Assembly (NCBI GenBank): GCA_011364985.1
Contig: RDOC01000001.1
Location: 155,124 to 219,123 of the forward strand
Source of the DNA: Candidatus Thorarchaeota archaeon
GTDB lineage: Archaea; Asgardarchaeota; Thorarchaeia; Thorarchaeales; Thorarchaeaceae
Length of the DNA: 64,000 nucleotides
Direction of reading: 5' to 3'
Position numbers and translations under genes: made by a program. Within the stretch, counting starts at the first letter, position 1, and every line of letters starts with the position of its first letter. The notes under the pieces are model-generated. The model did no database searches, was not told the DNA's origin, and worked only from the letters and a program-made list of their open reading frames with translations. This document shows positions 7,703-29,571 of this stretch, in pieces.

Positions 7703-10120
7703 TCATCTATGGAAAGTCGCAATCACTGTGTTGGACATTGGCAAAGCGCGAATGTATGCAATTCCAACCTCCTTCACTCGGTTTACAATGCCTCCTCCAA
7801 AGACTTTCATCATAGGCAAGGAGAAATACGTAGGCACATGAATTTCCAATTCATTTGGCAGCTGAGTCATCCGGATCTCAATCTGGTGTTGATTTGTAGA
7901 TGCTCCAACTTCAATGTCTACCTCACCCAGTGACAGTGGAATTCTATCTACGAGGAGGGGTGTGGGAGAAGTATACCATTCATCAGGAATGGCCGGGAGG
8001 ACAACGATATCCGACTCCATTTCAGATACCACCATTTCGCGCAAGAGGATGAGAAGATCTGCTGCTGCAATCATGCTGCATCCATCGCCAGAGTGTCCTG
8101 CACCCGAATGTGGATCGACAAACTCAGGAAGAGTATGGTATTCCGAGAGCAGCTCTATTGCTCTGCGAAGAATATTCCATGTGCCAGATTTGCGAAGCGT
8201 GAAGACGTAGTAGTGGGCCAAACGCAGTGCAAGATGACTGGAAAATCGTTTCTCCTCTCCCGGGATCATTACTAGATTCCTTCGCATAAGGTTGTCCAAA
8301 GTGGTGTTTAGCGACCATTGTTCAAGACTGCTGTCGATAGTACCCTTTCCGAGAAGAGCAATTGCTGCAAGGAGGTCAAGTGATGCAAGCGATAGATCGG
8401 GGTCATCCGCTTGGTCTACGACACTTTGGTAGACCCTCACTGATTTGGATTCAAGCCATTTTGCATAGTCGTTCTGCAGACTACAGAGCGATTCTGCCAA
8501 TTGGGTCATTTCAAGTGCCTCGAGAGACACCACACCGATTCTTAGAGCTGCTAAATCCCATAGTGAATCAACAATATCACGAAGTCCAAACTGCATTCTT
8601 ATTGGAACAGGAGCCACATCCGTTGTGATGTCCTCACGCAATTCAGCCGTTACCGCCAGTATTTCATCGACACCCAAGAACTCCTCTTTCGGCTCACTGT
8701 CTTCTCTGATTTTACCATGAATACTCCCAGACTTCACTGATTCATCAGCCAAATCGCCAGACTCACTTTGCACTCTGATTCTGGCCTCAATTGTCAATTG
8801 CATCTTAGAATAATATGCGCCAATCAATGGGCTTATTGTCTTCAGAAACGTCATATCTCGGAAATAGAAGAAATACTGAAGAATTCCCCAAATCAACGAA
8901 CTCTGGCTATTAGGAGGTGTTTCCTTTTCATCCGAAAACCACTTCCGGATTGCTTTAAGGGCAAGTTCTTTCGCTAGCTCGGAACAGCCAGAGCGGCATA
9001 GTGCAGAAAAGACTCTAGCCCATTCGATAGACTCGGTTGAGCCTACTGAGCTAATGCCTGAGTTCAGCTTTGTGTCAACTTGTTGTGCAAGAACGGCCTT
9101 CGCCTGCAGAGCGGCATCATTCAGCACTACCTCTGGAAAAGTAAGATTCGTTGTCTTTTCGGCGAAATCGAACCACATGCCTACATATTCATCCCTTACG
9201 TTCGTATTCATTTTGAAGGGGATTTCGTCTGTCTTCGTCATTCTGGATAAGGGACTCACAAAGAAATACTTCTTGGATTCAGCCGGAGCTAAATTGACTC
9301 TGTACTTCAGAACAGCAGTAACGAGACCTTTGACGCTAGAGAACTCTGTGTCCTTTCGGTCATTCTCTTCTTGGATAGTGGCGATCAGATTCGGATTATC
9401 AGCAGTTGAAAGAACGATTGACGATGCCAGCTTGTCAAAGAGCATGGCAACGTAACCATTGGAAATCATCATCTTCTGAGCGGAATCATACTCGACGGAC
9501 TCCAATGGTTCGACCCCTCTAACGGAAGTGGGTCTAAGAACTGCATAGAAAACAAACTCAGTATCATTCAGCGAATGGTTCTTTAAGTGAATCTCATTGT
9601 ATAGAGCTTCGCGTCCGCTCGATGTGCCATGATAAATCTGGCGAATCACTTCGATCGCCCCAAAGAATTTTCTCCATTCGAAAAGCTGATCATCAGGACT
9701 ATACAGCTCGATTCTTGATTCGTTTCGGTCAACCAAGGCAGGGAAGACCATAGAGCCTTTATCCTCAAACCAGAAATCAATGGACCCACATTCACGATTA
9801 GCTGTCACAAGTCCTGTTTCATCCATTATTGCATAATTGCTGGATCCCACTCCGCCAATGGTGATCCAGTTCTGGCTCATGTTATTGGAAAGGGCATCCT
9901 CGGATATACTGCCAGATTTGGAAATTGATGCCTGCTTTGTAGCCCAAGCGGGGAGCATCCATGATTCCGAGGAGGTATAAACTACCTTGTTCAATCCAAC
10001 CTGTAGATCACGTATTTCAAGTGCTGCGGAAGAATGTTGAAAGGATGACGACGGCACTTTGTTATTTCGTGCTACTCGCCTGAATCGCTCAATAAGGTTA
10101 TCATCTGTTAGGTCCAACAC
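7703..10120 (-). CDS. Large protein, possibly six-hairpin glycosidase-like
   Basis: 805-aa ORF; beta-rich N-terminal half, helical middle and a C-terminal segment (MVVSEMESDIVVLPAIPDEW...VDIEVGAS) that recalls glycosidase C-terminal regions. Weak resemblance only. Confidence 0.35.
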   Translation of the reverse strand: MLDLTDDNLIERFRRVARNNKVPSSSFQHSSAALEIRDLQVGLNKVVYTSSESWMLPAWATKQASISKSGSISEDALSNNMSQNWITIGGVGSSNYAIMDETGLVTANRECGSIDFWFEDKGSMVFPALVDRNESRIELYSPDDQLFEWRKFFGAIEVIRQIYHGTSSGREALYNEIHLKNHSLNDTEFVFYAVLRPTSVRGVEPLESVEYDSAQKMMISNGYVAMLFDKLASSIVLSTADNPNLIATIQEENDRKDTEFSSVKGLVTAVLKYRVNLAPAESKKYFFVSPLSRMTKTDEIPFKMNTNVRDEYVGMWFDFAEKTTNLTFPEVVLNDAALQAKAVLAQQVDTKLNSGISSVGSTESIEWARVFSALCRSGCSELAKELALKAIRKWFSDEKETPPNSQSSLIWGILQYFFYFRDMTFLKTISPLIGAYYSKMQLTIEARIRVQSESGDLADESVKSGSIHGKIREDSEPKEEFLGVDEILAVTAELREDITTDVAPVPIRMQFGLRDIVDSLWDLAALRIGVVSLEALEMTQLAESLCSLQNDYAKWLESKSVRVYQSVVDQADDPDLSLASLDLLAAIALLGKGTIDSSLEQWSLNTTLDNLMRRNLVMIPGEEKRFSSHLALRLAHYYVFTLRKSGTWNILRRAIELLSEYHTLPEFVDPHSGAGHSGDGCSMIAAADLLILLREMVVSEMESDIVVLPAIPDEWYTSPTPLLVDRIPLSLGEVDIEVGASTNQHQIEIRMTQLPNELEIHVPTYFSLPMMKVFGGGIVNRVKEVGIAYIRALPMSNTVIATFHR

Positions 10121-10324
10121 GGTCCAACTCCAATTTGTGAGAGTGAGAAGCTGGCTGATGAGTCCTAAGTTGCGGAATAGGTAATTAATGTAGCTTGTTC
10201 ATTTTTCGGACATGTCATGGATACCTAAGCCTTAATAACACTCTCAAGCCCGATTGTACAAAAGCTCGATATGATTGCGTATTAAGCCCAAATGCTGATT
10301 GACCAAAGATATGAGGGATTTGCT

Positions 10325-11512
10325 ATGGCGGAAGTCCTCACGAAACCGTCTCGTAGAATTAGGAATATGGTTGCAAAGGAACTCAGATTAATAGCTAAAG
10401 ACAAGGTTGCTCTGTTCTTGATCTTTCTGCTTCCAGCCGCGCTGATTGGAATGCTCTGGTGGGTTACGGATATGAGCGACATGGGAGATATTCAGTTAGG
10501 CGATGATGACGGCGGCACAGACATTGGCACAAGCACAAACATAACCGAAGCTGAGGACACAGGTATCAGCATTGGGCTATTAGACTTCGACACAACACGC
10601 GTCTATGAAGGAGAGGACCTCTCTACAAACTTCACAAACTACTTGGAGATGTTCGTTGACGATTTAATAATGTACAACGACACGGCAGATGCTTTTCGAG
10701 ACTTGTATGAGGGCGAAATCCTTGGATATGTAATAATCCCTGATGGATTCGAGGCCAACCTGACTGAGAACATACCAACATATGTTGAAATTCATGTAGA
10801 TGCCACAGCACTATTGGATCAAGCTTCTGTTCAAGGTGTAATTCAGGGGGCTATAATAAGCTTCAGGGCATCAAAACTGTGGATTAGATCTGAAGTGTTT
10901 CCTTCGATGATAATCGAATTCCAGCCAGAAGGAAGCTACCTTGCTGCAGTCTTTGGAGCATTCATTGTCATAATATCCTCATACCTAGGAATTGCTATGA
11001 CTTCTGCCCAATCCATTGTAGGTGACATTCCTCTTCGTAGAATGTTACTCACCCCGACAAACAGGCTAGAAGTGATTACTTCTAAGGCCATCGCCTATGT
11101 GATTATTGGTTTCTTCCAATCGCTTCTTCTCATTTCCCTCTGGATTATTGCTTTCGATTTGGAGATGAACACTGGTTTTGGGAGTCTGGTTATCATTATG
11201 AGCCTAACAGCTTTGACAGGATCATCTACAGGGATAATCATCTCTGCAGCTGCAGGAACAAGATTGCAGGCCAATCAGATCTTTCTCTTTGTCATGTTTG
11301 GCTCTGTTATAATGTCAGGATTCTTTATCGACGTGGGTTGGCTCAATGAAGTACTCCCCCTGAATCTGGGAATGAGCGTCCTGATTGATACAGCATTCAA
11401 AGGATTATCATTACTTGATATCATAGATGCCATTCTTAGACTTCTTGCAATTTCATTAGGGATGATACTAGCTGCATCATTCATTTTCTCTAGAAAGCCA
11501 ACTCTTGACTAG
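10325..11512 (+). CDS. ABC-2 type transporter permease
   Basis: N-terminal MVAKELRLIAKDKVALFLIFLLPAALIGML, large extracytoplasmic loop, then AQSIVGDIPLRRMLLTPTNRLEVITSKAIAYVIIGFFQSLLLI and several TM segments. Start placed at MAEVLTKPSRR; the ORF is open to 10292. Confidence 0.85.
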   Translation: MAEVLTKPSRRIRNMVAKELRLIAKDKVALFLIFLLPAALIGMLWWVTDMSDMGDIQLGDDDGGTDIGTSTNITEAEDTGISIGLLDFDTTRVYEGEDLSTNFTNYLEMFVDDLIMYNDTADAFRDLYEGEILGYVIIPDGFEANLTENIPTYVEIHVDATALLDQASVQGVIQGAIISFRASKLWIRSEVFPSMIIEFQPEGSYLAAVFGAFIVIISSYLGIAMTSAQSIVGDIPLRRMLLTPTNRLEVITSKAIAYVIIGFFQSLLLISLWIIAFDLEMNTGFGSLVIIMSLTALTGSSTGIIISAAAGTRLQANQIFLFVMFGSVIMSGFFIDVGWLNEVLPLNLGMSVLIDTAFKGLSLLDIIDAILRLLAISLGMILAASFIFSRKPTLD

Positions 11513-13216
11513 GTGATGGACATGATAAAACAAGATCGTGACGAAGCATCAGAAATCGAAGCAAAACCAACCTTTGTAGAAGAAGCCTACTTCTCTGGGG
11601 GAAGACTGAACGAAGCCATTGATTGGTGTCTTGCTCGTCACGACCGAGAAATTCACTGTATAGTGGAAGGAGTACTCAACAGTACAAGCAGGGAAGTACG
11701 TTTCAGCGGAAGGCTTCTGAAGATAAAGAAGAGTGTCTTGACACGGAGATTTGCCGCCCTTGTTGAAGAGGATTTGAGAAAGAGGAAGAGAGGAGATCTT
11801 GATGCAATTCTCACAGTGGGCGGAGAAGGGGCAACTCAAGAGGATGTTGCAGCCACCCAAATAACACTTCGTAATTACTTGAAAAGAAACCTCGCAGAAG
11901 ACTTGTATTATGATGGACGTGACCTTCAGCAGGCAGTGAAGGACCTTGAAAAGATGAAGAGCACACAGAGCCTCTGTACTGTGTGGGGTAATAGAGCCTC
12001 TGATAGGCTTCCGATTATGATAAGCGGAATGGTTGTAGGATTTGCCATTGAAGCAATGCAGCCTGCTCGCGGCACGATTCTACCTGAAGGGTTTCTTGAA
12101 GTCAGGGTTGAGCCAGAGGGCTCTGTGGGAGATCCGAAGATATACTTGGTCGCTCAACCACAGCTATTCATTGGTCCAGGGTATAATCCCAATCTTACAA
12201 TTATAGCCAGCAAGGTTTACATCCAGCCTTATGCCTGGAAAGAAGCGCCAGCCTATCGAGATGTCGTTGAAGCTAGGAACCTCACGGTCTCTCTAAAGAC
12301 CGGCAAGAACCTAGTAGAGAATGTATCATTTGCATTAGAAGAGGGAGAGATGCTTGCAATAATCGGTGAGTCGGGAGCTGGCAAGTCAACAACTGTGAAG
12401 GCACTAATTGGGGATATACCTAGTACAGGAGTCGCCAGAATCGCAGGAGTCGATTCCCGACAAACAACAAAGGTAAGGCACTTCTTTGGATATTGCCCAC
12501 AAGACCTATCCTACATGTACGAGACCTTCACACCATTGGAGAATATCATTGCGTTTGGGAAACAATACGATATACCGGAGTGGCAATTGATTCAGAGAGG
12601 GAAATCGCTGCTTAGGGACTTTGGGATTCTGGAAAAAGGAAACAATGCTACAAGAGAATTGAGTGGAGGACAGCAACGACGCGTATCCATAGCTGTGGCC
12701 TTGGCCCACATGCCAAAGGTACTGTTGATGGACGAGCCGACTTCCGGACTCGACCCAGACAACAGAAATGAGCTATGGAACTATCTAGCCTATATCAATC
12801 AGGAATATGGAACCTCAATCATTGTAATCACTCACTACCCGATAGAGGCAGAATTCTGCGATAAGGTTGCGGTCTTTATTCGTGGAAAATCACTTGTTGC
12901 CTTTGGCAGCCCACAAAGACTCAAGGAGTCCCTCCCAAATAGAGGCTTTTCTGTTGGAGTCGTGCTTGAAGAGGTGGATCCGCGAGCAAGGACGATCCTT
13001 GAGGAAGTGGAAGGAGTCCGCTTTGTGCTTCAGCGAGGAGAGCTACTCAAGGTATTCACAGATGAGCCCCTTGAGAAAGTGGCTCAGAAATGTGTCTCCG
13101 CACTCGATACCAGAAAGATTGCGGTTAAGATTGTGAAGACAAAATCCGTGGCCGATATGGTGGACTATTACATAGCAATCACTAGGGGCCTAGTAACAGG
13201 AACAATCGAGAAGTGA
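11513..13216 (+). CDS. ABC transporter ATP-binding protein with ~245-aa N-terminal extension
   Basis: Walker A GESGAGKSTT, signature LSGGQQRR, Walker B VLLMDEPTSGLD, switch His VITHY. The first ~245 aa have no Walker motifs. Confidence 0.9.
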   Translation: MMDMIKQDRDEASEIEAKPTFVEEAYFSGGRLNEAIDWCLARHDREIHCIVEGVLNSTSREVRFSGRLLKIKKSVLTRRFAALVEEDLRKRKRGDLDAILTVGGEGATQEDVAATQITLRNYLKRNLAEDLYYDGRDLQQAVKDLEKMKSTQSLCTVWGNRASDRLPIMISGMVVGFAIEAMQPARGTILPEGFLEVRVEPEGSVGDPKIYLVAQPQLFIGPGYNPNLTIIASKVYIQPYAWKEAPAYRDVVEARNLTVSLKTGKNLVENVSFALEEGEMLAIIGESGAGKSTTVKALIGDIPSTGVARIAGVDSRQTTKVRHFFGYCPQDLSYMYETFTPLENIIAFGKQYDIPEWQLIQRGKSLLRDFGILEKGNNATRELSGGQQRRVSIAVALAHMPKVLLMDEPTSGLDPDNRNELWNYLAYINQEYGTSIIVITHYPIEAEFCDKVAVFIRGKSLVAFGSPQRLKESLPNRGFSVGVVLEEVDPRARTILEEVEGVRFVLQRGELLKVFTDEPLEKVAQKCVSALDTRKIAVKIVKTKSVADMVDYYIAITRGLVTGTIEK

Positions 13217-13223
13217 TGAAGAA

Positions 13224-16200
13224 GTGGCTCTGACGAACTTGCTAAGACGAACAGCGACTGGTTTCGCAGTTTTGGTTCTAGTGATGGTCGTTTCAGTTAG
13301 CCCTATGATTGCTACGATGTCTGTACTACCGGAGATGACTGAAGAATCACCGGTAGTCAGAATAGATGACGCCCTCTTAGATGATATGAACTCGAGCAAT
13401 GAAACTGATATTCTTCTCACGTATAGTGATGCTGTTACCGAATACAAAGCGAAAACATCAATTGAGATGATAGACAGCTCAGCCAGAATCATTGAGACAT
13501 TCACTGACCTGAATATGCTTCGGGTGAAGCTCATAGGAAGCTCGATTGGGAAACTGGTCGAACTGAATTTCATCACGAATATATGGTCAAATGAGTTGTG
13601 TGAGGTGTCATCAGGCACCAATGCCTTGAGTCCAAGCGTTGCATCAAATCAGTACCAACCTGCTATCGACCTTATAGGTGGTCGGGGTCTCTGGGAGGAA
13701 GGATTCAATGGAACAGGTGTTGTCATTGCGGTTCTTGACACAGGTGTAGATAGCACCCATGCAGACCTTGACGACTTTGATGATAATGCCAGCACTTCTG
13801 ACACGAAAGTTGCAGCTTCGGCATCCTTCTCCGAAGGCGATACACTGCCCATCGATATAATAGGCCATGGGACTTACGCGGCATCAATTGCTGCAGGCAC
13901 TGGGAATAGCTCGGAAGGCTTGTATGCCGGGATAGCTCCAGGAGCTACTATTCTTTCAGCCAAGGTAACACTGGGAGGCCTATACGCATCACCTAGCTGG
14001 ATTGTATCAGGAATCGAATGGGCTGCAAGTAGAGGCGCAGACATCATCCTCCTGCCCTTCAACACCTTTGGTGCGCCAGGAGATGCTGTTTCTGTCGCAG
14101 TACGCGAAGCAGCAGAGAAGGGAATCTTCGTTGTTGCGGCGGCCGGTGACGATGGACCAGATTACCTCACAATCATGTCACCAGGGGGTTCTGCTGCAAC
14201 ATTTACAGTTGGGGCGTATGATACCGAGAAGCAAGAGATTCCTGATTTCTCGGGAAGAGGACCATCTCTTGACCTCCTAACAAAACCGGACATTGTGGCA
14301 CCAGGCGTAGGTGTTGTTGGAGCAAAGATGGGATCTGCGCTCGAAAGCCTTGGTTTCGGATCCTTTGACCTTGGCACCATTGGAAGCCTCTCGGGGCTTC
14401 TCGGTGGCGATAGCACCGGAGAAGACCTTGATGAGTACTACATGGTTGACGATACAACAACTGCATCTGCATCAATCGTAGCAGGAGCTGCTGCAATTCT
14501 CATGCAGGCATTCGATAGGGTAACACCCATTGCCCTTGGCAATGTCCTAAGAGACACTGCAACTCTAATTCCCTACGGAGCAAATGATGGAGGTGCTGGA
14601 CTTCTCAATCTGCAAGCAGCATTTAGCTATCTTCGAACCAAGCAAGAGCCCATAAACCCCCAAAACAGAACAACGGGAACATCACAACTTGCTCTTGGTA
14701 TCGTGACAACTGCAGGAACTGATTCCTCAACCATTCTACTAATGAGCAGCTACGGTACTACTGTGGCAGCAGTTGATACACGAACTAGTCAAGACACCAG
14801 CATTCACATTCTCATGGGGATGTTTGCCCTCAGCTGGGAAAACAGAAGCCCCACTAACCTCATGGAATTTGAAGTGAAAAGTGAACTTCACTACACTAGA
14901 CTAGACTCAGGAGATCTTGGTTACAACAGAATGGTTGGAGTTCTTGCGTATGATGAGATTTATGTGGTTCTGCTTGTGGAATCATATAATCTTACAACAT
15001 ATTCTTCTTTGCCACTTGACGGATTAAAGGTAACACCGTATATTCTTAATCTGGGTCCTAATCCTATTGATAATGTCAGTCTATTCCTGTCCTATTCTCT
15101 TGATCTCTTTAGTGACGGAGAGGATGACCATGGAAAATACTCGTTGGGCATGCAGGAGTTGTTTGTCTATGGCCAATCAGAAGACTTGGATAGCTTCTAC
15201 TTCGGTCTGAATTCCAGCATCCCATTATCCGCCTTTGAGATTGGCAATTCTTCCGAGGTATCATCTCATATTTCAGATGACGGCTTGACCGGCTCAACCA
15301 CATTCGACGGTTCGGTGGGTCTAGGGATGAAATGGCATTTTGGAGAACTCCCTGTGAAGAAACCAGCTAACGTTTCAATTGCTATGGGCTTCGGAGAGAA
15401 TCGAACAGTCCTTGATGCGTCAATCCTAGCACAATGGGAAGCAGAGCCTCCATCTACGGTTACTGATGAAGGAGACCTCATTATTGTCGAGGCAGACATT
15501 CCACGAGTTGCCGAGATAGGGGAGCATTATAAAACAAGGGCAGTCATGATCAACGTGGGTGGAAATGCCTCACAAGCGACCGGCGCATTCTTGGTGGCAA
15601 AGGAAGAGGACAACGGACTATCGATGTTCAGCAGAGTGTTCTTGTTTGATGAAGTAAAACCATTCCATGCAGAGATACTAACAACAACTTGGAGCCCTGA
15701 GAAGATGGGCATAAACACTGCTGCATGGATTGCTGCACCAGATTTCGCTATTGTAACACAACTATTCTTGGGAACAGCGAATATCGTTGACCTGATCAAT
15801 CTCTTGGACAACTTTCTCTTGCGAGATGTTTTTGTCATTGACCCAATCTCCTCAACATCAGTGTTCCCTAAACAGCTGCCATTTGCACCCTTTGATATCG
15901 TATTTCCCGCTGATTTTGGTTTATACACATTCGTAGTCGCCACAACAGAAAGCCTTGGAAACCTCACTGTACAGAAGTATGGCAATGCAAGCGATTGGGG
16001 TAATGCCACACTACCAAGTACAGAAACAGTGGAGGGTTATTACAACTTCTCACTCTTTCTTCTAGCATCCCCGATAACCATTGATGGATACCATCGATGT
16101 GACTATGTAATCGATACGGACACAGGCTGGACCTACAATATTACGTTGGAAACAAGCCTTAGATATCCTAGAGCAATGATGCTGGTTGACACCTCTCACG

Positions 16201-17594
16201 GGGGAGGATTGAGTTTCTTTGGAGGCTTTGGGGATGTGGGAGGTATGGGAGATATTGGCGGAAGCATGGAATTCCCGCTTGCACAGGATGATAGCGGAGG
16301 CATTTCACTTGATTCAGGATTCGACCTCAGCAGCCTTGGAGACCTAGGTGATCTTACCGGTCTATTGGATGCATTTCGTCTCACAACATTCTCAGGACTA
16401 TCAAGCATGAAGAAAGCGATGGCCAACAGAGGTCTTGATTTGGTTGAAACGCCAGGAATTGAGCTTGATGAAGACCTTCTAAGCCAGTTCTCGGCAGTCT
16501 TTGTCTTCAGTCCAACGGAAGAATTCAACAGCACAGACGTTGACATGCTCAGGAAATATACAAGAGATGGTGGCAAGCTAATAGTCCTTGGAGATGAGGA
16601 TGGTACAGCCAATCTAACTGGCATTAACAATTTGATTTCGCCTTTTGGATACTCGATGCAAGGCGCTCATCGGCAAGAGAACACCACAGACATCATAAGT
16701 GGAACGCTGCTTGGGAGTAGTCTAGACTCAATCTGGCTTGGTGGTGGAACCTACATTCTGGGTAATCAGTCGTTATCCACCGCTTTCGTCAATGGAAAAC
16801 CTGTTGTCCTCCTTGACGATTCAAGACCAGAGTTGGCCCTCTTTGGGTCTTCAAGAATATTCATGAACAAGAATCTTGCAAAATGCAACAATTCTCTTCT
16901 ATTAGATAATCTAATCACATACCTATTGAGAAACACGCTGACGGGAGAGGCATCACTGGCTGAAGACACCCACTTATACGAGGCGGGAAAGAGCGTCTAT
17001 CTGAATCTTGTGATAACAGACATACATGGGCGTCCTGTGAACGATTTGTTCGTGGCAATAGCCTTTGAGCTGCCCAATGATACGCTTGTCTTTTTTATTG
17101 CCGGATTTGTGGAGAACGGACTCTACTCGTCCCAGTTCACTCCGAGCTACTGGAAATCAGCAGGAAGAATCAACGGTATCTTTGTGATAATGGGTGGGGA
17201 GAACTATGCCAATACCTATGCCGGCATAGGATTCGAGCTTTATGAACCAAGTGCCACTACAGGAGTCGAGCCGCCGTTCAGACTCTTGACAATGGCCCAG
17301 ATAGCCATGTTAGCTGCCGGCGGCATCTTTGGCTCTCTAATACTGGGGCTCGTCTACAATAGAAGAGCCAAGCGCAAGAAGATGCGCATCATTGAGATTG
17401 AGCCCGAATTAGTGAGAGAGATTGACAATACGCTAAATGCATTGCTTGCTGCTTTCACGCAGATAGAACAGCTCATCCAACGAGAAGACCTAGACCGAGT
17501 ACAGAAAATAGAATCGTTGAGAGGACTTATGGAAGGGCTCGAAAAGGGACAAAAGGAGTTCAAGAAGGTGAGCGATAGAGTGGGAGGTGTGTGA
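13224..17594 (+). CDS. Subtilisin-like (S8) cell-surface protein, probable pseudoprotease, with C-terminal TM helix and cytosolic coiled-coil tail
   Basis: Signal/TM GFAVLVLVMVVSVSPMIA; VIAVLDTGVDSTHADL (Asp), GHGTYAAS (His), AAAGDDGP at the oxyanion Asn position, DDTTTASASIVAGAAAIL at the GTSMAxPHVAG position; C-terminal AQIAMLAAGGIFGSLILGLVYNRRAKRKK. GTG start. Confidence 0.85.
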   Translation: MALTNLLRRTATGFAVLVLVMVVSVSPMIATMSVLPEMTEESPVVRIDDALLDDMNSSNETDILLTYSDAVTEYKAKTSIEMIDSSARIIETFTDLNMLRVKLIGSSIGKLVELNFITNIWSNELCEVSSGTNALSPSVASNQYQPAIDLIGGRGLWEEGFNGTGVVIAVLDTGVDSTHADLDDFDDNASTSDTKVAASASFSEGDTLPIDIIGHGTYAASIAAGTGNSSEGLYAGIAPGATILSAKVTLGGLYASPSWIVSGIEWAASRGADIILLPFNTFGAPGDAVSVAVREAAEKGIFVVAAAGDDGPDYLTIMSPGGSAATFTVGAYDTEKQEIPDFSGRGPSLDLLTKPDIVAPGVGVVGAKMGSALESLGFGSFDLGTIGSLSGLLGGDSTGEDLDEYYMVDDTTTASASIVAGAAAILMQAFDRVTPIALGNVLRDTATLIPYGANDGGAGLLNLQAAFSYLRTKQEPINPQNRTTGTSQLALGIVTTAGTDSSTILLMSSYGTTVAAVDTRTSQDTSIHILMGMFALSWENRSPTNLMEFEVKSELHYTRLDSGDLGYNRMVGVLAYDEIYVVLLVESYNLTTYSSLPLDGLKVTPYILNLGPNPIDNVSLFLSYSLDLFSDGEDDHGKYSLGMQELFVYGQSEDLDSFYFGLNSSIPLSAFEIGNSSEVSSHISDDGLTGSTTFDGSVGLGMKWHFGELPVKKPANVSIAMGFGENRTVLDASILAQWEAEPPSTVTDEGDLIIVEADIPRVAEIGEHYKTRAVMINVGGNASQATGAFLVAKEEDNGLSMFSRVFLFDEVKPFHAEILTTTWSPEKMGINTAAWIAAPDFAIVTQLFLGTANIVDLINLLDNFLLRDVFVIDPISSTSVFPKQLPFAPFDIVFPADFGLYTFVVATTESLGNLTVQKYGNASDWGNATLPSTETVEGYYNFSLFLLASPITIDGYHRCDYVIDTDTGWTYNITLETSLRYPRAMMLVDTSHGGGLSFFGGFGDVGGMGDIGGSMEFPLAQDDSGGISLDSGFDLSSLGDLGDLTGLLDAFRLTTFSGLSSMKKAMANRGLDLVETPGIELDEDLLSQFSAVFVFSPTEEFNSTDVDMLRKYTRDGGKLIVLGDEDGTANLTGINNLISPFGYSMQGAHRQENTTDIISGTLLGSSLDSIWLGGGTYILGNQSLSTAFVNGKPVVLLDDSRPELALFGSSRIFMNKNLAKCNNSLLLDNLITYLLRNTLTGEASLAEDTHLYEAGKSVYLNLVITDIHGRPVNDLFVAIAFELPNDTLVFFIAGFVENGLYSSQFTPSYWKSAGRINGIFVIMGGENYANTYAGIGFELYEPSATTGVEPPFRLLTMAQIAMLAAGGIFGSLILGLVYNRRAKRKKMRIIEIEPELVREIDNTLNALLAAFTQIEQLIQREDLDRVQKIESLRGLMEGLEKGQKEFKKVSDRVGGV

Positions 17595-17595
17595 G

Positions 17596-18585
17596 ATGTC
17601 TGATGCTGAGAAGACTCAAGCACTCGAGATTGACATCAAGGACCTCAAGGTTGCCTTTGGTGATTTTTACGCACTTAATGGGGTTTCGTTTTTCGCTTAC
17701 AAGAAGGAGTTCCTCGGAATCATTGGGGCCTCTGGAGCAGGGAAGACCACTGTTCTCCGTGTTCTTACAGGACAGGTCGGACCAACCTCTGGTCAAGCCT
17801 TTGTTGGCGGCTTTGATGTGACTAAGAAGAGCGACCTAATCAGCCTTCTAGTTGGCTACGTTCCTCAACTAGAGCATCTCAGTCTGTACTATGACTTTAC
17901 CGCCCTTCAAAATGCCGAGTTCTTTGGTAGGTGTTTTGGCCTGAGGCCTAAGGAGATAGAGAAGCGTGCTCGAAACATCCTGACAATTCTTGGTTTCGAT
18001 GAAGAACTCATGACAAAGGCGGTAAAGAGACTCTCAGGTGGAGAGAGGAAGCGTGTTTCCATTTGTCTTGGCATGATTCATGATCCCCCAGTGCTGTTGC
18101 TCGACGAACCTACAACCGGCCTCGATGCACACCTCAGACACGAGACTCTGAACTACCTGAAAGAACTGAACTACGAACTGGGAACAACGATGGTCATCAT
18201 CTCCCATGACCTTGAGATTGTTGACTATTGTACACGAGTATGCCTGCTGGAAGACGGGCTCATTAGCCAATTTGGCACTCCAGAGGAGTTGATCTCCACG
18301 CTGCCCGGAAAAGGCGAGAGTTTGAGGATTGTTCTTCCAAAGATAACGACTGGAATCATGAACCAAGTGATGTCACTTCCTGGCGTCGAATATGTGGCTG
18401 CAGCCGGTAGAAACGCAGTCAAGCTTTTCATTGATGATCCGGATAAGCAGATTCTTCCAATTATCAAAATGCTCAACCAGAGAGGTATACCCTTTGAGGA
18501 GATATCCCTAGTAGAGAGCGATTTCTTCGATTACTTCCAAGTGAAGCCTTGGAAAGACAATGGTGGAGGAGAGAGTACTCCGTGA
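17596..18585 (+). CDS. ABC transporter ATP-binding protein
   Basis: GASGAGKTT, LSGGERKRVS, VLLLDEPTTGLD, ISHD. SD GGGAGGTG precedes ATG 17596 and overlaps the upstream stop; the ORF is listed from 17587. Confidence 0.9.
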   Translation: MSDAEKTQALEIDIKDLKVAFGDFYALNGVSFFAYKKEFLGIIGASGAGKTTVLRVLTGQVGPTSGQAFVGGFDVTKKSDLISLLVGYVPQLEHLSLYYDFTALQNAEFFGRCFGLRPKEIEKRARNILTILGFDEELMTKAVKRLSGGERKRVSICLGMIHDPPVLLLDEPTTGLDAHLRHETLNYLKELNYELGTTMVIISHDLEIVDYCTRVCLLEDGLISQFGTPEELISTLPGKGESLRIVLPKITTGIMNQVMSLPGVEYVAAAGRNAVKLFIDDPDKQILPIIKMLNQRGIPFEEISLVESDFFDYFQVKPWKDNGGGESTP

Positions 18586-21500
18586 AACGAAACAGAATAC
18601 TCCTAGTATTATTGTGTGCTTGTGTGCTAATCGGACTCCAAGCATTAATTGGAGATCCCACAGGGCAATCTGTTGCCATCATACAGGACAGGTCCAGTGC
18701 AGTAGTCGCGGAGATTGCTCCGTTCGACACCGCGATTGTGTGGTCCAATGACACAGGAGGACAGGTGGCTGGTATTGCCATTGCTAATTTTGATGGCGAT
18801 AACTACGATGAGATGGCGGTGGTCACTCAGGCCGGGGTGTTACAGCTCTATGATCACACTGGGAATCGTCTCTGGAGCAGAGACCTGATGACTCCAGCCA
18901 ATGACATCGCGACCTTGGATAGGAACGCCGACGGAGAAATGGAGATCGTGGTGGGAACTGACGATGGCTTCATGGTGATGACAGCATCCCAGACCGTTCT
19001 TGCCAATATTGCCCTTCCAAATCCAGTACAGGCCGTTGATTCCGGTGACCTTGATCTGGACACCTTTGACGAGGTCTTCATTGGATGCGATGACAACCAT
19101 CTCTACGCCTATGAGGCAAATGGCACCTATATCTGGGAGTTTGCAAGCAATGGGCCCATCACTCAGGTTCTGGCCGCTGATGTTGACCTCGACAGTGGAG
19201 CAGAGGTGCTTGTCGGGTCCTCAGCTGGAAAATTCGCTCTGGTCGAAACCACTGGAGCCGTCACATTCAGTGTAGACAAGGCTTATGCTATCACTGGAGT
19301 GGCTGCAGGAAACCTGCTGAGCGGGGGAAATCTAGAGGTAGCCTTTGGTACCGCTGGGGGCGAAATTGCAGTCTATCGAAGTGCCGGCACTCCAGAATAT
19401 GGCATCTACCATGATGATGCAGTGACCGCCTTGCACATTGGACAGCTTGTTTCTGGAGGCTTTGATGAGATGGCCTTTGGCACTGCAGGAAACGAACTGC
19501 ACGTCTACAATGGCACCGGCTCTATGCAATGGAATAAGACGTTGGCAGGCCAAGTAAACAGCATCCGCTTTGCCAATGTGGGCGGTCTCCCGAACAATCA
19601 GCTCATCTCTGGTACTGGGGCTGGGACCCTCAACGTCTACAATGCCACAGGTTACAGGGTGGTTCAGACTACCCTTGATACTTTCCAAGGAGTCATTGCC
19701 ATCGGTGATATCGACACCAATGGCAACAGCGAGTATGCCGCAGGAACCAACAACGGCATCATTAACGTCTACGGAAGGGATCTTGATGGCGACGACCTTG
19801 CAGATGCGCGAGAAACCCTCATCGACCTCACTAACCCCGCAGAGCCTGACTCGGACTATGACAATTTAGATGATGGTGAAGAGGTTCTTCAGTATGGTAC
19901 AGATCCAAATAGCGACGACTCAGACTCAGATAAGCTGAAGGACTTCTCAGAAGTTCACACCTATGGAACCGATCCCAACGATGCTGATTCTGACGATGAC
20001 CTTCTCACAGACTGGCAAGAGATCTACCTCGGTACCGATCCCAATGACGAAGACTCGGACGGAGATGACTTGACAGACTTTGAAGAGAACAACGTGACTC
20101 TCACGGACCCACTTGATTCTGACACGAACAACAATGATATCAATGACGGGGCTGACGATAATGATGGCGATGGCCTGACAAATCTGCAAGAAGTGCGTCT
20201 TACGCTTACCGATCCCAATGATGTGAACACAGATGGAGATGCGCTCAGCGATTATTATGATGATGAGGACGCAGATAGCCTCGCCAACTGGAAGGAGATT
20301 CAGGTCGGTGCGGACCCGCTTGATCCTGACTCAGATGATGACTTGCTTTTGGACGGTGCAGAGGTCAAGATATGGAAGTCCAGCCCCACGAATCCAGACA
20401 CTGACGGAGACGATTTGACCGACTATGAAGAAGTCATGATTGTTGGCTCGAACCCCACCAAAGCTGATACTGACGAAGACACGCTGTCTGACTACGAAGA
20501 ATACGTGACCTACGGAACCAACGTCACCAATGCCGACTCGGACTATGACGACTTGGAAGATGCAGACGAGATCAATGAGTACTTCACAGACCCTCTCGAT
20601 TGGGACTCGGACGGAGATACTCTGTCGGATGGCGACGAAGTAAATGTATATGGTACTGACCCCAACTCGGTGGACACGGATCTAGACACGCTTTCGGATG
20701 ATTATGAGATTACACAGGGAACGAACCCCAAGAAGGCAGACACCGACGGAGACACGATAAATGACGCGCTTGAATTGCTTACCTATTTCACCAATGCCAC
20801 AAATGTCGACACCGATGGCGACCTGATTCGGGACAACGATGAGATCAAGTATCTGGCATTTGGTTTCGACCCCACGGATTCGACTTCTTGGGGGCAGCCA
20901 GAGAGCGATTATGATTATGATGCTGACGGTGACTTGCTTACTAATGGTCAGGAGATATACCTCACCCGAACGCATCCAGGCCGAATTGACTCAGACCTAG
21001 ATGGTACCAACGACAATCTTGAGGATGCTGACTTGGATGACATCAACAACTACGATGAGATCAACGTGACTGATACAGACCCTCGAAATCCTGATACCGA
21101 TGGGGATGAAGTGAAGGATGGTGATGAGTATCTCATTTTAGGAACTGACCCCAACGATGAGGACACGAATGATAATTCAATCAACGATTATGATGAGGAC
21201 CCCGATGAGGACAACCTCTCCAATGGTGTCGAGCTCTATATCACCGATACTGACCCCTTGGACGCAACAACTCACGGGACAACGCCAGACGACGAATATG
21301 ATGGTGACGGAGATTTCTTGCCAAACTGGTTTGAAGTCTTTAGAACTGGGACTGACCCGCTGTACAATGATACCAATGACAATGGCATCTTTGACTGGGA
21401 GGAGGACCCAGACAATGATGATTTGACCAATCTGCAGGAGTATGAGGTATGGAGAGATTTTGGGTACGAGTGTGATCCCCTCGATGCAGACTCTGACAAT

Positions 21501-24500
21501 GACCAACTAACGGATGGTGAAGAGGTCCTCTACACGCTCACCGATCCCAGCGACAATGATGACGACGATGACACGATTCTCGATGGTCAAGACGACCAGG
21601 ACAACGATGGCCTAACAAACATAGAGGAACTGCGGATCTATAACACGAATGCCACCAATTGGGATACCGACGGAGACATGATCCGCGACGGGCTTGAGAT
21701 TCAGATAGGGCTGAATGCGACAAACTTTGACACGGATGGGGATGGGATCTATGATGGATGGTTCGATGAGGATGGGGACGGAATCTATGACCCTGAAGAG
21801 CTAGGAGAAGATGTGGATGCAGATGGCATTGTTGACCCTGAAGAAACCGACCCGAACAACGCAGATTCCGACGGGGATGAGTTAGATGATTATGAGGAAT
21901 ACTTAGTGGGCACGAATCCGTTGAAACCAGATTCGGACGAAGATTTGCTGCTTGATGGTCAGGAGGTTCTTCACTTCGGGACGAATCCGCTTTCAAACGA
22001 CACTGATGGAGATCTCCTTGATGACTATATTGAGGTGAATGTTACCCTTACCGACCCAACTAATATGTGGTTCAATGGCACTCACACGGATTACCAAATT
22101 GACTCGGATAATGACATGCTGTCAAATGGTGACGAAATCTACATCTATGACACTAGCCCCGGCGACTTCGACTCCGATGACGACCTCATTGGAGATGGCG
22201 AAGAGATACTTGTCTATGGCTCAGACCCGCTAAAATGGGACTCCGATGGAGACCTGCTATCGGACTACGATGAGATTATGAGATACGGGACGAACCCCGC
22301 GGCCCAGGACTCTGACGCAGATCAGGTCGATGACTATTCGGAGATTGTGATTCTTGGCACTGATCCGAACCTATGGAGCACAGCAGGCAACGGCACTTCA
22401 GACTATGACCGAGATGAGGATGGAGATGGTCTAAGCAACGGTCTCGAACTCTATGGTTACCACAGCAATGCCACGTCTTCTGACACTGATGGAGATGAAT
22501 TGGAAGATGGCATAGAGGTCTATCTCGCAGGGAGCAGCCCGACCGACAAAGACACTGACGATGACGGTGTTAGTGACTACTTAGAATACATGGTCTACCA
22601 CACAGACGCTTCGGGCTCGGATTCAGACTCAGACGATTTGACGGACTACTATGAAATCTACGTGTCCCTTACGAGTCCTACTGACTGGGACTCAGACGAT
22701 GACCAGCTCTCTGACGGTGACGAGGTGAATGAATATGGGACAGACCCCAAGGCAGCGGACTCGGACAACGACCAGCTCAATGACAGAAGGGAGCTGTTTG
22801 AGGTTGGTACCGACCCCTTGCTCAACGATACTGACGGAGACACCCTCAGTGACTACGAAGAATGGGTTATTTACGGTACAGACCCGCTAGTGGCCGATGC
22901 AGACGAAGATGGACTTAACGACGCAGAAGAAATAGAGAACGGAACTGACCCAGAGAATGAAGACTCCGACTTTGATTCCCTTAGCGATTATGATGAGGTC
23001 AATATCTACGAAACCAGTCCTATTAACGCAGACACAGACTTTGATAACCTTGCAGATAGTGATGAAATATTCAATAGCAAGACCGATCCCAATCGCGCGG
23101 ACACCGATGGGGACTCAATCCCGGATGACCTTGATGATAAGGACGCCGATGGAATAAGCAACTTCGATGAGATCTACGTGTATGAAACCAACTGCACTCT
23201 CTTTGACACCGACGGGGATATGCTAGGGGATGGCTATGAAATCGCACAAAATCCATGGGTAACCGACCCGAATGAGGTTGATACCGATGATGATTTGCTT
23301 AGCGACTGGGATGAAATCTTCATGTGGTCTAGCAATCCAACACGCAAGGATACCGACGGGGATCTCCTCCAAGATGGTGAGGAAGTTCTGACCTGGCACA
23401 CCGACCCTAACCTCGATGATACAGACGCCGATATGGTCAACGATTATGATGAAATCAAGGTCTTCGAAACAAACGCGTTGGACCCCGATTCTGATGATGA
23501 CAATTTGTCCGATGGTTATGAGTTGTTCGTCTACAACACGGACCCCCTCAATGAAGACACAGACAATGACAGACTACTGGACGACGAAGAGGAATTCTAT
23601 GGTACTGACCCAAGAGTGGAAGATACAGATGAAGACGAACTAACAGACTATGAAGAAGTGTACTTGACGGGTACAGATCCGACCCTATACAGTACGGAGG
23701 GCGACGGAATTTCAGACGCCGACCGTGACGGCGATAACGACATGCTCACAAATTCTCAGGAGATTCGTCTGACTAAAACAAACCCTGCTAGCAATGATAC
23801 CGATGCCGATGGCAAAATCGATGGATTAGATGACGAGGATAGAGACCTCTTGACCAACTACGAGGAATGCGTCATTACTGAAACTGACCCCAGAGACAGA
23901 GACTCCGACGACGACGGTGTTAGCGACCTGAACGACGATCAGGACGGGGATGGACTCACGAATGGTGATGAGGTGCACATTTATCTGACAGACCCGCTAC
24001 GTCGCGATACTGACGGAGACAAACTGTCTGACAGAGAAGAGGTTGAAGACTACGGCACAGATCCGCTCGTCAAGGACACGGACATGGACGAAATCGAGGA
24101 CTACGAGGAGATAAACACCTATCACACCAATGCGACCTACTTTGATACAGACTACGACCTGCTCAGCGATTGGATCGAAATCTTCCTAACTGAAACTGAC
24201 CCGACGAATATGTGGTACAATGCGACTCATACGGACTATGAGATTGACTCAGATGGTGACTTCTTATCCAATGGTGCAGAGATCTACAATTACGCCACAT
24301 CACCGGGAGACCCTGATTCGGACAACGACAACTTGCTTGATGGCGAAGAAATCGCACTGGGAACGGACCCCCTTGAAGAAGACTCAGACTTGGATAATCT
24401 CATTGACGGCTTGGAAGTGCACGTATACCAAACTGACCCCCTCTCCGAGGACACCGACGAAGACCAAATCAATGACTACGATGAAGTGCGCATCTACTTC

Positions 24501-25361
24501 ACGAACCCAAACGTTGAAGACACGGATCAAGACAACCTATCAGATTACGATGAAATCTTCGTCTACTTTACGGACCCGAACTCCGGAGACTCCGATAGGG
24601 ATCAGGTCCCTGACTATACCGAAGTTGTAACCTATGCCGAGTATAACATGAATCCCTGGCAGGCAGATTCTGACAGCGACGGGCTGAGCGACAGCCTTGA
24701 ACTCTACACAATAGGCACGAACCCCGGTCTGAATGACACAGACGCGGATGGACTTGACGACTATGCAGAATACTACACCTACAAAACCTCCCCGTTGGCT
24801 CCTGATACAGACCAAGATGGCTGGACGGACTATGAAGAAGTCACCATCTACGGGACCGACCCGCTAAAGGTCGACACGGATGCAGACGGTCTCATGGACT
24901 CAATGGATTTCAATCCGCGGCTCCACTGGGTCGTGCCAATCATCGTTCTACTATTCGTTGGCGGCATCACCGCAGTAGTCTATAAACGCGTACGTAGAAC
25001 TACACGCAGAGAGGAGTACATCACAAAGGCAGAGCCTGCAAGCCTCGGTCTTGAGAAGGGGATGGACATCGCGGTGGAGTACAAGATACGCGAAGGCAAG
25101 GTGGTCTTTGGCGTGGCGATACGGAATAACTCTGCGAACCCCATGAGCAATGTGCAGGTGGTGCTTGGTATACCCGAACTGACAGATACCATCCAGAGCA
25201 AGAGCGCAGGTTCTGTTGAGCCCGGCGATAGTGCAGTGGTAGAGATCGCCTTCGAATTGCAGCCCGGCGCCGAGGGCGAGCTAGTAGGCATGGTGGAATA
25301 TGACTCCGTCGAGGGTGAGCACCGTATAGTGAACCTAAAGCCCGTCAGGATTGTAGCATAG
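18582..25361 (+). CDS. Giant surface protein: signal/TM, FG-GAP/VCBS-like beta-propeller, ~65 TSP3-like Ca-binding-type repeats, TM helix, cytosolic beta-sandwich-like domain
   Basis: GTG 18582 follows SD GGAGGAG and overlaps the upstream TGA (GTGA). N-terminal hydrophobic RILLVLLCACVLIGLQ; about 8 blade-like units (DGDNYDEMAVVTQAGVLQLYD...); repeated DSDGDxLSDxxEVxxYGTDPxxx units; HWVVPIIVLLFVGGITAVVYKRVRR; tail with VAIRNNSANPMSNVQVVLGIPE. Confidence 0.9.
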   Translation: MKRNRILLVLLCACVLIGLQALIGDPTGQSVAIIQDRSSAVVAEIAPFDTAIVWSNDTGGQVAGIAIANFDGDNYDEMAVVTQAGVLQLYDHTGNRLWSRDLMTPANDIATLDRNADGEMEIVVGTDDGFMVMTASQTVLANIALPNPVQAVDSGDLDLDTFDEVFIGCDDNHLYAYEANGTYIWEFASNGPITQVLAADVDLDSGAEVLVGSSAGKFALVETTGAVTFSVDKAYAITGVAAGNLLSGGNLEVAFGTAGGEIAVYRSAGTPEYGIYHDDAVTALHIGQLVSGGFDEMAFGTAGNELHVYNGTGSMQWNKTLAGQVNSIRFANVGGLPNNQLISGTGAGTLNVYNATGYRVVQTTLDTFQGVIAIGDIDTNGNSEYAAGTNNGIINVYGRDLDGDDLADARETLIDLTNPAEPDSDYDNLDDGEEVLQYGTDPNSDDSDSDKLKDFSEVHTYGTDPNDADSDDDLLTDWQEIYLGTDPNDEDSDGDDLTDFEENNVTLTDPLDSDTNNNDINDGADDNDGDGLTNLQEVRLTLTDPNDVNTDGDALSDYYDDEDADSLANWKEIQVGADPLDPDSDDDLLLDGAEVKIWKSSPTNPDTDGDDLTDYEEVMIVGSNPTKADTDEDTLSDYEEYVTYGTNVTNADSDYDDLEDADEINEYFTDPLDWDSDGDTLSDGDEVNVYGTDPNSVDTDLDTLSDDYEITQGTNPKKADTDGDTINDALELLTYFTNATNVDTDGDLIRDNDEIKYLAFGFDPTDSTSWGQPESDYDYDADGDLLTNGQEIYLTRTHPGRIDSDLDGTNDNLEDADLDDINNYDEINVTDTDPRNPDTDGDEVKDGDEYLILGTDPNDEDTNDNSINDYDEDPDEDNLSNGVELYITDTDPLDATTHGTTPDDEYDGDGDFLPNWFEVFRTGTDPLYNDTNDNGIFDWEEDPDNDDLTNLQEYEVWRDFGYECDPLDADSDNDQLTDGEEVLYTLTDPSDNDDDDDTILDGQDDQDNDGLTNIEELRIYNTNATNWDTDGDMIRDGLEIQIGLNATNFDTDGDGIYDGWFDEDGDGIYDPEELGEDVDADGIVDPEETDPNNADSDGDELDDYEEYLVGTNPLKPDSDEDLLLDGQEVLHFGTNPLSNDTDGDLLDDYIEVNVTLTDPTNMWFNGTHTDYQIDSDNDMLSNGDEIYIYDTSPGDFDSDDDLIGDGEEILVYGSDPLKWDSDGDLLSDYDEIMRYGTNPAAQDSDADQVDDYSEIVILGTDPNLWSTAGNGTSDYDRDEDGDGLSNGLELYGYHSNATSSDTDGDELEDGIEVYLAGSSPTDKDTDDDGVSDYLEYMVYHTDASGSDSDSDDLTDYYEIYVSLTSPTDWDSDDDQLSDGDEVNEYGTDPKAADSDNDQLNDRRELFEVGTDPLLNDTDGDTLSDYEEWVIYGTDPLVADADEDGLNDAEEIENGTDPENEDSDFDSLSDYDEVNIYETSPINADTDFDNLADSDEIFNSKTDPNRADTDGDSIPDDLDDKDADGISNFDEIYVYETNCTLFDTDGDMLGDGYEIAQNPWVTDPNEVDTDDDLLSDWDEIFMWSSNPTRKDTDGDLLQDGEEVLTWHTDPNLDDTDADMVNDYDEIKVFETNALDPDSDDDNLSDGYELFVYNTDPLNEDTDNDRLLDDEEEFYGTDPRVEDTDEDELTDYEEVYLTGTDPTLYSTEGDGISDADRDGDNDMLTNSQEIRLTKTNPASNDTDADGKIDGLDDEDRDLLTNYEECVITETDPRDRDSDDDGVSDLNDDQDGDGLTNGDEVHIYLTDPLRRDTDGDKLSDREEVEDYGTDPLVKDTDMDEIEDYEEINTYHTNATYFDTDYDLLSDWIEIFLTETDPTNMWYNATHTDYEIDSDGDFLSNGAEIYNYATSPGDPDSDNDNLLDGEEIALGTDPLEEDSDLDNLIDGLEVHVYQTDPLSEDTDEDQINDYDEVRIYFTNPNVEDTDQDNLSDYDEIFVYFTDPNSGDSDRDQVPDYTEVVTYAEYNMNPWQADSDSDGLSDSLELYTIGTNPGLNDTDADGLDDYAEYYTYKTSPLAPDTDQDGWTDYEEVTIYGTDPLKVDTDADGLMDSMDFNPRLHWVVPIIVLLFVGGITAVVYKRVRRTTRREEYITKAEPASLGLEKGMDIAVEYKIREGKVVFGVAIRNNSANPMSNVQVVLGIPELTDTIQSKSAGSVEPGDSAVVEIAFELQPGAEGELVGMVEYDSVEGEHRIVNLKPVRIVA

Positions 25362-28308: not shown

Positions 28309-29571
28309 ATGAATCCTGACCAGCTCTTGAGCGAACTCGAAGCAAAACTCAAAGTAGTTGGGATTAAGGAGATTATTGAGCCAGAGCTTGTCAGACCGGC
28401 AAGGCATCAGAGCAGAAACCGAAGAGCTATCACTTCTCTTGAGCCCGAATTGCAGAATGCATTGGAAGCCCTGAAACACGATGAGAGACTGCCAATAGTC
28501 CTGTTCAAGATGGCTAATCTTCACCTTCTGGAAGGAAGTTTTGCTAAGGCAATAATGCTCTACGAGATTACCCTTGGAATGGATAGCAGGCAAATTCCTG
28601 CATGGGTTAACATGGGTCTTGCATATCTCCTATCAAATGAATACAAGGATGCGGCAAGTTGTTTCGGAAGTGCCCTTGCATTAGACAATGAAAATGTGGT
28701 TGCCTTGGTTCATATGTCAGTGGCTCAATGTGAGCTAGGGAGTTCTGATGCTTGCCAGAAACATCTGGACCTTGCGTTGAAAGTAGACCCAAACAGCGCG
28801 AGAGCTCGACATGGAAAGGGAATGTACCTAAAACGTCAAGGAATCTTGGAAGGGGCCCTCAATTGGTTTGCCAAGGCACTTGAAGTCGATGAGTTCTTTG
28901 TCCCTTCCCTGATGGAGCTCGGAAGAGTCCATCTGGAACTCGGACAGCACGAAAAAGCAGTGGATGACCTCAAGAAGGTCCTTCGAGTGGATCCAAACCA
29001 AGCATATGCATATGCTATTCTTGGAGATGTTTTCTACGAACTCAAGGACTACAATCAATGCCTCTTCTATTACGATAGAGCCGTTGCAATAAAATTCGAC
29101 GACCCTGCGCTCTGGATTAGGAAGGGGGACATTCACAAACTACTGAAGTCATACAAGCAGGCACATGACGCATATCAAAAGGCAATTAATGCGGATCCAG
29201 AACACGTGGAAGCTTGGGCAAGAAGTGGAGAGAACCTCCTGTGGATGAATGACCAAGATGTTGCTCTTGAGTACTTCAATACAGCTCTAGCTCTAGCACC
29301 AGATGATGCAGATGTAGCGCACAAAAGGGGTCTTGTATATTATGGAATGCAGAGATACGATGAGGCCCTGGCCGATTTCGATATTGCATTCTCTGTTGAG
29401 CCAGACAACCCAGAACATCTATACCACAGGGCATTCTGTTTGGAACATCTTGAAAGATATGCTGAGGCAAAACGCACTTGGCAGGTTGCCAAGGCACTCT
29501 ACGACGAGGAAGGTAATGATATCCGGTCTGCAGAGTGCAATGCAAGAATGAAGAGACTCTCAAGTTCATAA
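28309..29571 (+). CDS. TPR-repeat protein
   Basis: Many consecutive TPR units (e.g. PAWVNMGLAYLLSNEYKDAASCFGSALALDNEN, AYAILGDVFYELKDYNQCLFYYDRAVAIKFDDP). Confidence 0.85.
   Translation: MNPDQLLSELEAKLKVVGIKEIIEPELVRPARHQSRNRRAITSLEPELQNALEALKHDERLPIVLFKMANLHLLEGSFAKAIMLYEITLGMDSRQIPAWVNMGLAYLLSNEYKDAASCFGSALALDNENVVALVHMSVAQCELGSSDACQKHLDLALKVDPNSARARHGKGMYLKRQGILEGALNWFAKALEVDEFFVPSLMELGRVHLELGQHEKAVDDLKKVLRVDPNQAYAYAILGDVFYELKDYNQCLFYYDRAVAIKFDDPALWIRKGDIHKLLKSYKQAHDAYQKAINADPEHVEAWARSGENLLWMNDQDVALEYFNTALALAPDDADVAHKRGLVYYGMQRYDEALADFDIAFSVEPDNPEHLYHRAFCLEHLERYAEAKRTWQVAKALYDEEGNDIRSAECNARMKRLSSS

Follow-up and report, generated by a model that had tools for sequence, protein, structure and literature searches.

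An Asgard cell-surface module pairing an ABC-2 transporter with an extracellular, very probably inactive subtilase

Five tightly packed, linked open reading frames (ORFs) on the + strand occupy positions 10325-25361 of a 64,000-nucleotide stretch (the window) from a Candidatus Thorarchaeota archaeon (assembly GCA_011364985.1, contig RDOC01000001.1), a Thorarchaeia (Asgard) metagenome-assembled genome of 1.7 Mb and 74% completeness. They belong to an unnamed, conserved cell-surface system, hereafter the module, in which an ATP-binding cassette (ABC) transporter has an extracellular partner. This partner, the product of gene 3, is a subtilase-like protein that is very probably catalytically inactive. 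The parts of the module are of known kinds; their combination and its wide Asgard conservation appear to be new, as a literature search on the cluster, partial in its coverage, found no account of either.

Among known archaea, the Asgards are the closest relatives of eukaryotes, and little is known of their surface activity. A surface system that uses energy and is clearly delimited genetically offers candidates that can be tested for roles in surface contact or work on the envelope in Asgards. Its partner is a dead enzyme whose loss of catalysis accompanies its linkage to the ABC core, and one lineage has a stalk of its own. The pseudoprotease was apparently recruited to the core once and kept through the divergence of many families.

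Genes of the cluster

A preliminary description of this DNA had reported five genes on one strand with near-zero spacing, and all ORFs and junctions were re-read as it gave them. Genes 1 and 2 meet at 11512/11513 and genes 2 and 3 at 13216/13224. The stop codon of gene 3 (17592-17594) is followed by the ATG of gene 4 at 17596, and the GTG of gene 5 at 18582 overlaps the TGA of gene 4 at 18583-18585. Pfam agrees with the description in finding one ABC-2 permease (ABC2_membrane_3) and two different ABC ATPases (ABC_tran in genes 2 and 4). The two large single-pass surface proteins with cytosolic C-terminal tails were recovered by hydropathy, which gives genes 3 and 5 a signal and one C-terminal transmembrane segment (TM) each, with tails of 77 and 122 residues respectively. 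New to the picture are a GIFT domain in gene 3, an N-terminal domain in gene 2, and the wide spread of genes 1-4, but not gene 5, across Asgards.

The ORF of gene 1 opens at 10292, with the ATG at 10325 as the likelier start. Its product has both the domain and the six TM segments of an ABC-2 permease, with a loop of about 157 residues between TM1 and TM2 by hydropathy, and its Pfam matches are to ABC2_membrane families only. In Thorarchaeia, where a single gene encodes it, the permease is presumably a homodimer. Gene 2 carries about 245 residues ahead of its ATPase domain, with a weak Pfam match to the TrmB regulator family, and its ATPase motifs are invariant among orthologues. Strict patterns for Walker A, signature and Walker B were present in both window ATPases and in 52 of 56 module ATPase domains, the other four not having been checked by eye. 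Structure prediction of gene 2 from 23 orthologues was poor (predicted local distance difference test, pLDDT, 47); in its N-terminal domain, folding is apparent for residues ~131-240 only. By eye only, this domain (window 11513-12250) resembles two copies of a unit of about 110 residues, most clearly in a relative from Asgard family f5 (L089:9055-10872; families are given as f-numbers throughout).

Loss of catalytic residues in gene 3

Gene 3 had been called a pseudosubtilase, and the name is justified. The protein has the peptidase S8 fold and retains Asp172 and His215, but the full catalytic Asp-His-Ser set and the oxyanion Asn are absent, with Thr413 at the Ser position and Asp309 at the oxyanion position. 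Among module members the oxyanion position is Asp in all 43 correctly aligned rows, one further row being a misaligned fragment. The Ser position is Ala in 24, Thr in 8, Gly in 8, Leu in 1 and Ser in 3, so that Ser is lost in 41 of 44; these counts rule out a uniform replacement of Ser by Ala (24/44). All module members lack the Pro of the GTSxxxP motif, and the catalytic His is replaced in 11. The four unlinked Asgard subtilases that were counted all keep the oxyanion Asn, the Ser, the Pro and the His, and many further unlinked ones retain recognisable GTS or oxyanion motifs.

An Asp in the oxyanion hole is by itself no proof of inactivity, prohormone convertase 2 being an active exception. 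Taken together with the loss of Ser, it indicates that the window protein is very probably inactive. The module subtilases form one clade (SH-like approximate likelihood-ratio support, SH-aLRT, 100), separate from 18 unlinked subtilases, and catalysis was therefore probably lost once.

The subtilase region (residues 151-470) is also the best-conserved part of gene 3. Its mean identity is 74% in Thorarchaeia against 58% for the adjoining region, and 43% against 24% across families. A domain that is dead yet best conserved probably serves in binding, not in cleavage.

Downstream of the subtilase come beta-rich regions and the GIFT domain, which lies before the TM and is of the kind seen in ABC auxiliary proteins of the GldG family. 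PF23355 (IFT52_GIFT) was matched in 27/27 and PF09822 (ABC_transp_aux) in 26/27 Thorarchaeia gene 3 rows, and GIFT/ABC_transp_aux matches were also found in 4/4 scanned module members from other families. Compared with IFT52 structures, the region gave a phmmer E value of 2.5e-5. The names IFT52_GIFT, BBS2_Mid and BBS7 in Pfam might suggest a particular connection with IFT52 or BBS proteins, but this was rejected; across families the region matches IFT52_GIFT, ABC_transp_aux and DUF4350 alike, and the BBS2_Mid and BBS7 propeller matches are generic. Two helices are predicted in the 77-residue tail after the TM.

Subtilase-GIFT proteins with intact catalytic motifs were seen at two other Asgard loci (L078:7255-13150 and L080:7285-12941), where they adjoin a LolD-like ATPase and an FtsX-type permease. 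They are a possible active counterpart of gene 3. The L080 protein ends in a C-terminal zinc ribbon and weakly matches the GATase-like domain of site-1 protease from eukaryotes.

Conservation of the module in Thorarchaeia and other Asgards

The preliminary description would be refuted if no other genome kept these genes together, but other genomes do. Among the Thorarchaeia loci fetched around gene 4, genes 1-4 have the same order and strand in every one with a long enough contig. Orthologues share 63-70% (gene 1), 70-78% (gene 2), 51-66% (gene 3) and 74-82% (gene 4) identity, and genes 1-4 are separated by roughly -56 to +21 nt in almost every locus, one gap of 337 nt lying at a truncated ORF. 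A gene 2 relative is present in 46/47 sampled Thorarchaeia genomes.

Comparison was extended to 197 Asgard genomes, a scan of 85,488 species serving for close relatives only. Gene 2 has a strong relative in 105 of the 197. A related core of one or more permeases, an ATPase with the N-terminal domain, a pseudosubtilase-GIFT protein and a second ATPase is found in eight Asgard families besides Thorarchaeia. In f10 the order of these parts is as in Thorarchaeia; f12 has the full set with the subtilase transcribed away; f18 and one f2 genus (f2/g30) have two permeases; and f25, f26 and f27 have related sets, the parts being linked in varying order in f12, f18, f2/g30, f25, f26 and f27. Most f2 genomes (Loki-like, a guessed name) have a related ATPase that a single TM connects to an extracellular alpha-alpha toroid, read as Pfam Prenyltrans in two loci (L097 and L099). 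This fusion of ATPase and ectodomain independently suggests that the ABC family works with ectodomains. The fusions lie at L097:9392-12490, L098:7435-10422 and L099:9355-12528, that of L098 being equal in size and layout, and beside them are two ABC-2 permeases, a second ATPase and an ORF of 570-620 aa with a faint degenerate ATPase match. Gene 2-related ORFs of both sizes occur in f25, f27 and one f26 genome.

Co-occurrence was assessed with a family-specific stretch from the middle of gene 3. It matched 75/197 genomes, three of them (f14) through weak partial matches to other subtilases, and all the rest also hold a gene 2 relative. Outside Thorarchaeia, 28 genomes have both, two have a short ATPase only, none has gene 3 only and 120 have neither; these genomes are not independent samples, and eight families are involved. 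Of the two ATPase-only genomes, G099 does have gene 3 by hidden Markov model (L093), and in G125 (f2) the ORF is shortened and probably represents part of a toroid-type gene.

In quick tree searches with SH-aLRT support only, the ATPase domains fall into an ATPase 1 clade (97) and an ATPase 2 clade (90) that hold the same families in nearly the same arrangement, both grouping Thorarchaeia with f10, f5 with f12, and f18 with f2/g30. The two ATPases thus appear to have diverged before these families split. Permease and subtilase trees give the same groupings, except for the duplicated permeases of f18 and f2/g30. The agreement among the trees of both ATPases, the permease and the subtilase points to an old module whose parts have largely been passed on as a set, mostly by vertical descent. 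The earlier view of the five genes as one functional unit is therefore supported for genes 1-4 by order, co-occurrence and tree shape across nine Asgard families, and for gene 5 within Thorarchaeia only.

The stalk protein encoded by gene 5

Gene 5 directly follows gene 4 in 15/15 readable Thorarchaeia loci, with no readable counterexample; loci ending in a contig end or a run of N were counted as unreadable, not as present. Loss of gene 5 in many Thorarchaeia loci was considered and rejected, as those stretches read N or are contig ends. Wherever it could be scored cleanly, a gene 5 start is possible 4-37 nt before the end of gene 4, usually as a 4-nt overlap; some measured distances were artefacts in which the gene 2 ORF had been picked for gene 4.

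The TSP3 array of gene 5 is expected to bind Ca. The propeller is the fastest-diverging large domain of the protein (44% identity in the Thorarchaeia comparison) and the 122-residue cytosolic tail its best-conserved part (71%); conservation of the tail suggests a partner in the cytosol. The Asgard genomes searched outside Thorarchaeia yielded no orthologue, and no TSP3 stalk occupies this position in the other Asgard families read; judged by this distribution, gene 5 was added in Thorarchaeia.

The tail has weak relatives (E 1e-6 to 1e-3, 23-36% identity) within proteins of about 790 residues in other Asgards. Two of these (L110:2429-4795 and L113:2670-5072) combine a cysteine-rich N-terminus with repeats of a winged-helix-like segment and a beta-domain that is weakly similar to the tail. 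By eye they show no obvious TM, which fits a cytosolic place.

Proposed mechanism and alternatives

A subtilase that is preserved but dead points to a binding partner coupled to the ABC core. The reading preferred here, tentatively and with a likelihood somewhat short of even, is an Asgard ABC-2 machine whose ATP cycle works an extracellular clamp made of the dead subtilase and GIFT domains. Two different ATPases would power the permease (one gene in Thorarchaeia, two in some families), and gene 3 would be the dedicated membrane-anchored extracellular partner of this core. The dead subtilase cleft would grip a protein or peptide segment at the cell surface; ATP-driven movements of the permease would be transmitted through the TM and the cytosolic helical tail of gene 3, and would pull, release or hand over the gripped segment. 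In Thorarchaeia the gene 5 stalk, with its variable propeller head and conserved cytosolic domain, would be made alongside and would probably dock on the same machine. The physical complex, the substrate clamp, the mechanical coupling and the role of gene 5 are what we infer. The earlier description had left adhesion, stalk assembly, export and substrate capture as possible functions; for stalk assembly no evidence was found.

Several points weigh against such a clamp. ABC-2 permeases usually move substrates, and purely mechanical coupling would be a departure argued from analogy. Three Thorarchaeia have Ser at the Ser position, where the loss of activity is not certain. Family f5 keeps its gene 3 relative far from its ABC genes. 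The structure model of gene 3 residues 470-1456 is moderate (pLDDT 62) and its matches in the PDB are uninformative; those to macroglobulins, transglutaminases and mastigonemes were rejected as scattered, beta-rich and with TM-scores of <=0.2 among the matches listed. Gene 5, found in Thorarchaeia only, may merely share the transcript.

The last point leads to an alternative on the role of gene 5 alone, a real though lesser possibility that is compatible with the clamp for genes 1-4: the machine consists of these four genes, and gene 5 encodes a separate, co-transcribed adhesin. The lack of a gene 5 orthologue outside Thorarchaeia and the many other TSP3 and propeller surface proteins in Asgards are in keeping with this, whereas the constant position of gene 5 after gene 4, usually with the 4-nt overlap, in every readable Thorarchaeia locus and its conserved cytosolic tail speak for a closer tie.

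Somewhat unlikely is conventional ABC-2 export, whether of small molecules, lipids, glycans or peptides, with gene 3 as receptor or chaperone and gene 5 passive. ABC-2 systems are mostly exporters, and the permease and ATPases fall in the ABC-2/DrrA-like exporter group. Against this, an anchored ectoprotein of 1456 residues that is not found without the ABC core would be unusual for a simple exporter, and the Loki-like relatives fuse the ectodomain to the ATPase itself.

A surface motor is improbable. Here the ABC-2 core with its paired ATPases, the dead-subtilase clamp and, in Thorarchaeia, a stalk-propeller adhesin would move or remodel surface contacts with no solute transport; if so, the contacts could concern adhesion, motility or attachment to partner cells, with an origin in an early Asgard ancestor.

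Also improbable is peptide sensing or resistance of the LanFEG or Bce kind, in which the dead subtilase would trap a toxic or signal peptide for the ABC core to release or expel. The layout of ABC-2 permease and ATPase does resemble self-protection transporters, and an inactive subtilase fold is well suited to binding peptides. In spore germination, subtilases without activity serve signal detection, as reported for CspC (PMC6636752). Nevertheless, no two-component or immunity genes were recognised nearby among the window ORFs, the near-universal presence in Thorarchaeia fits housekeeping better than accessory resistance, and PADLOC returned only generic ATPase and subtilase matches and no known anti-phage defence.

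Comparison with known systems

The closest parallels each share a part of the module. In the GldA-GldF-GldG transporter of gliding Bacteroidota, which is tied to surface machinery (PMC5682007), an ABC-2 permease and an ATPase are likewise combined with an extracytoplasmic GIFT/ABC_transp_aux domain. Such an outer-face domain tied to an ABC core was found here in nearly all orthologues, with strict co-occurrence. In contrast to GldAFG, GIFT is placed in a single-pass pseudosubtilase protein rather than in the permease, and there are two different ATPases. Scores against the models were 131 bits for GldA (cut-off 402) and 12.5 for GldG (cut-off 390), GldF was not listed, and no type IX secretion system genes were seen. 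On these comparisons the module is GldAFG-like in parts and not a GldAFG member.

Type VII ABC systems such as FtsEX-EnvC and YbbAP-TesA offer a precedent for the proposed work of an ABC core on a dedicated outside partner, which may have an enzyme fold (PMC12646458 for YbbAP-TesA). Their permeases have the FtsX/MacB fold, whereas gene 1, with its ABC2_membrane matches only, does not show it, and the partner enzyme here is dead. CspC and CspA of Clostridioides have a subtilase fold with lost catalytic residues and a receptor-like role (PMC6636752), but they are soluble spore proteins with no ABC partner and no GIFT domain. Gene 3 scored 32-44 bits against their models (cut-offs 675-1250). It also fell short as a mycosin of the type VII secretion system (100 bits, cut-off 279), and no ESX genes were recognised among the window ORFs.

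Site-1 protease (MBTPS1) has the same succession of subtilase, GATase-like domain, TM and short cytosolic tail as gene 3, but is an active protease. The Pfam domain MBTPS1_4th was matched in 1/27 Thorarchaeia gene 3 orthologues, and a special relation to MBTPS1 is not shown. Gene 5 shares long TSP3 arrays with the surface proteins CglD and MtsD of Myxococcus; identity with them was rejected, since CglD scored 310 bits (cut-off 400), the repeats alone are shared and the ends differ.

Mapped features and neighbouring genes

Table 1. Features of the cluster and its neighbours (window positions). TPR, tetratricopeptide repeat.
Feature	Position	Strand	Basis or remark
Gene 1, ABC-2 type permease	10325..11512	+	PF12698 (ABC2_membrane_3) 1.5e-24, above cut-off
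Gene 2, ABC ATPase with N-terminal domain	11513..13216	+	ABC_tran; Walker A, signature, Walker B intact
Gene 3, pseudosubtilase-GIFT surface protein, 1456 residues	13224..17594	+	signal, ectodomain, one TM, cytosolic tail
Gene 3 subtilase domain, residues 163-453	13710..14582	+	PF00082 (Peptidase_S8) 7.1e-42
Codon 309, oxyanion-hole Asn to Asp	14148..14150	+	alignment column counts
Codon 413, catalytic Ser to Thr	14460..14462	+	alignment column counts
Gene 3 GIFT/GATase-like domain, approx. residues 986-1245	16179..16958	+	PF23355, PF09822 matches
Gene 3 TM (residues 1354-1379) and cytosolic two-helix tail	17283..17591	+	hydropathy, conservation, predicted helices
Gene 4, second ABC ATPase, DrrA-like	17596..18585	+	ABC_tran; motifs intact
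Gene 5, surface protein, 2259 aa	18582..25361	+	signal, beta-propeller, TSP3 array, TM, cytosolic beta-domain
Gene 5 propeller-like head, residues 31-415	18672..19826	+	domain match, conservation profile
Gene 5 TSP3-type array	19827..24911	+	TSP3_bac; 71 loose DxDxDxhx[DN] motifs, 24% Asp
Gene 5 cytosolic tail, residues 2138-2259	24993..25358	+	hydropathy, conservation
Neighbour, TPR-repeat protein, not assigned to the machine	28309..29571	+	downstream in 15 Thorarchaeia loci, in many immediately after gene 5
Neighbour, 805-aa protein without Pfam match, not assigned to the machine	7703..10120	-	divergent; upstream in 17 Thorarchaeia loci, 28-40% identity

At two f10 loci a gene for a Ras-family small GTPase directly follows the second ATPase (L074:3386-3916 and L081:2806-3339).

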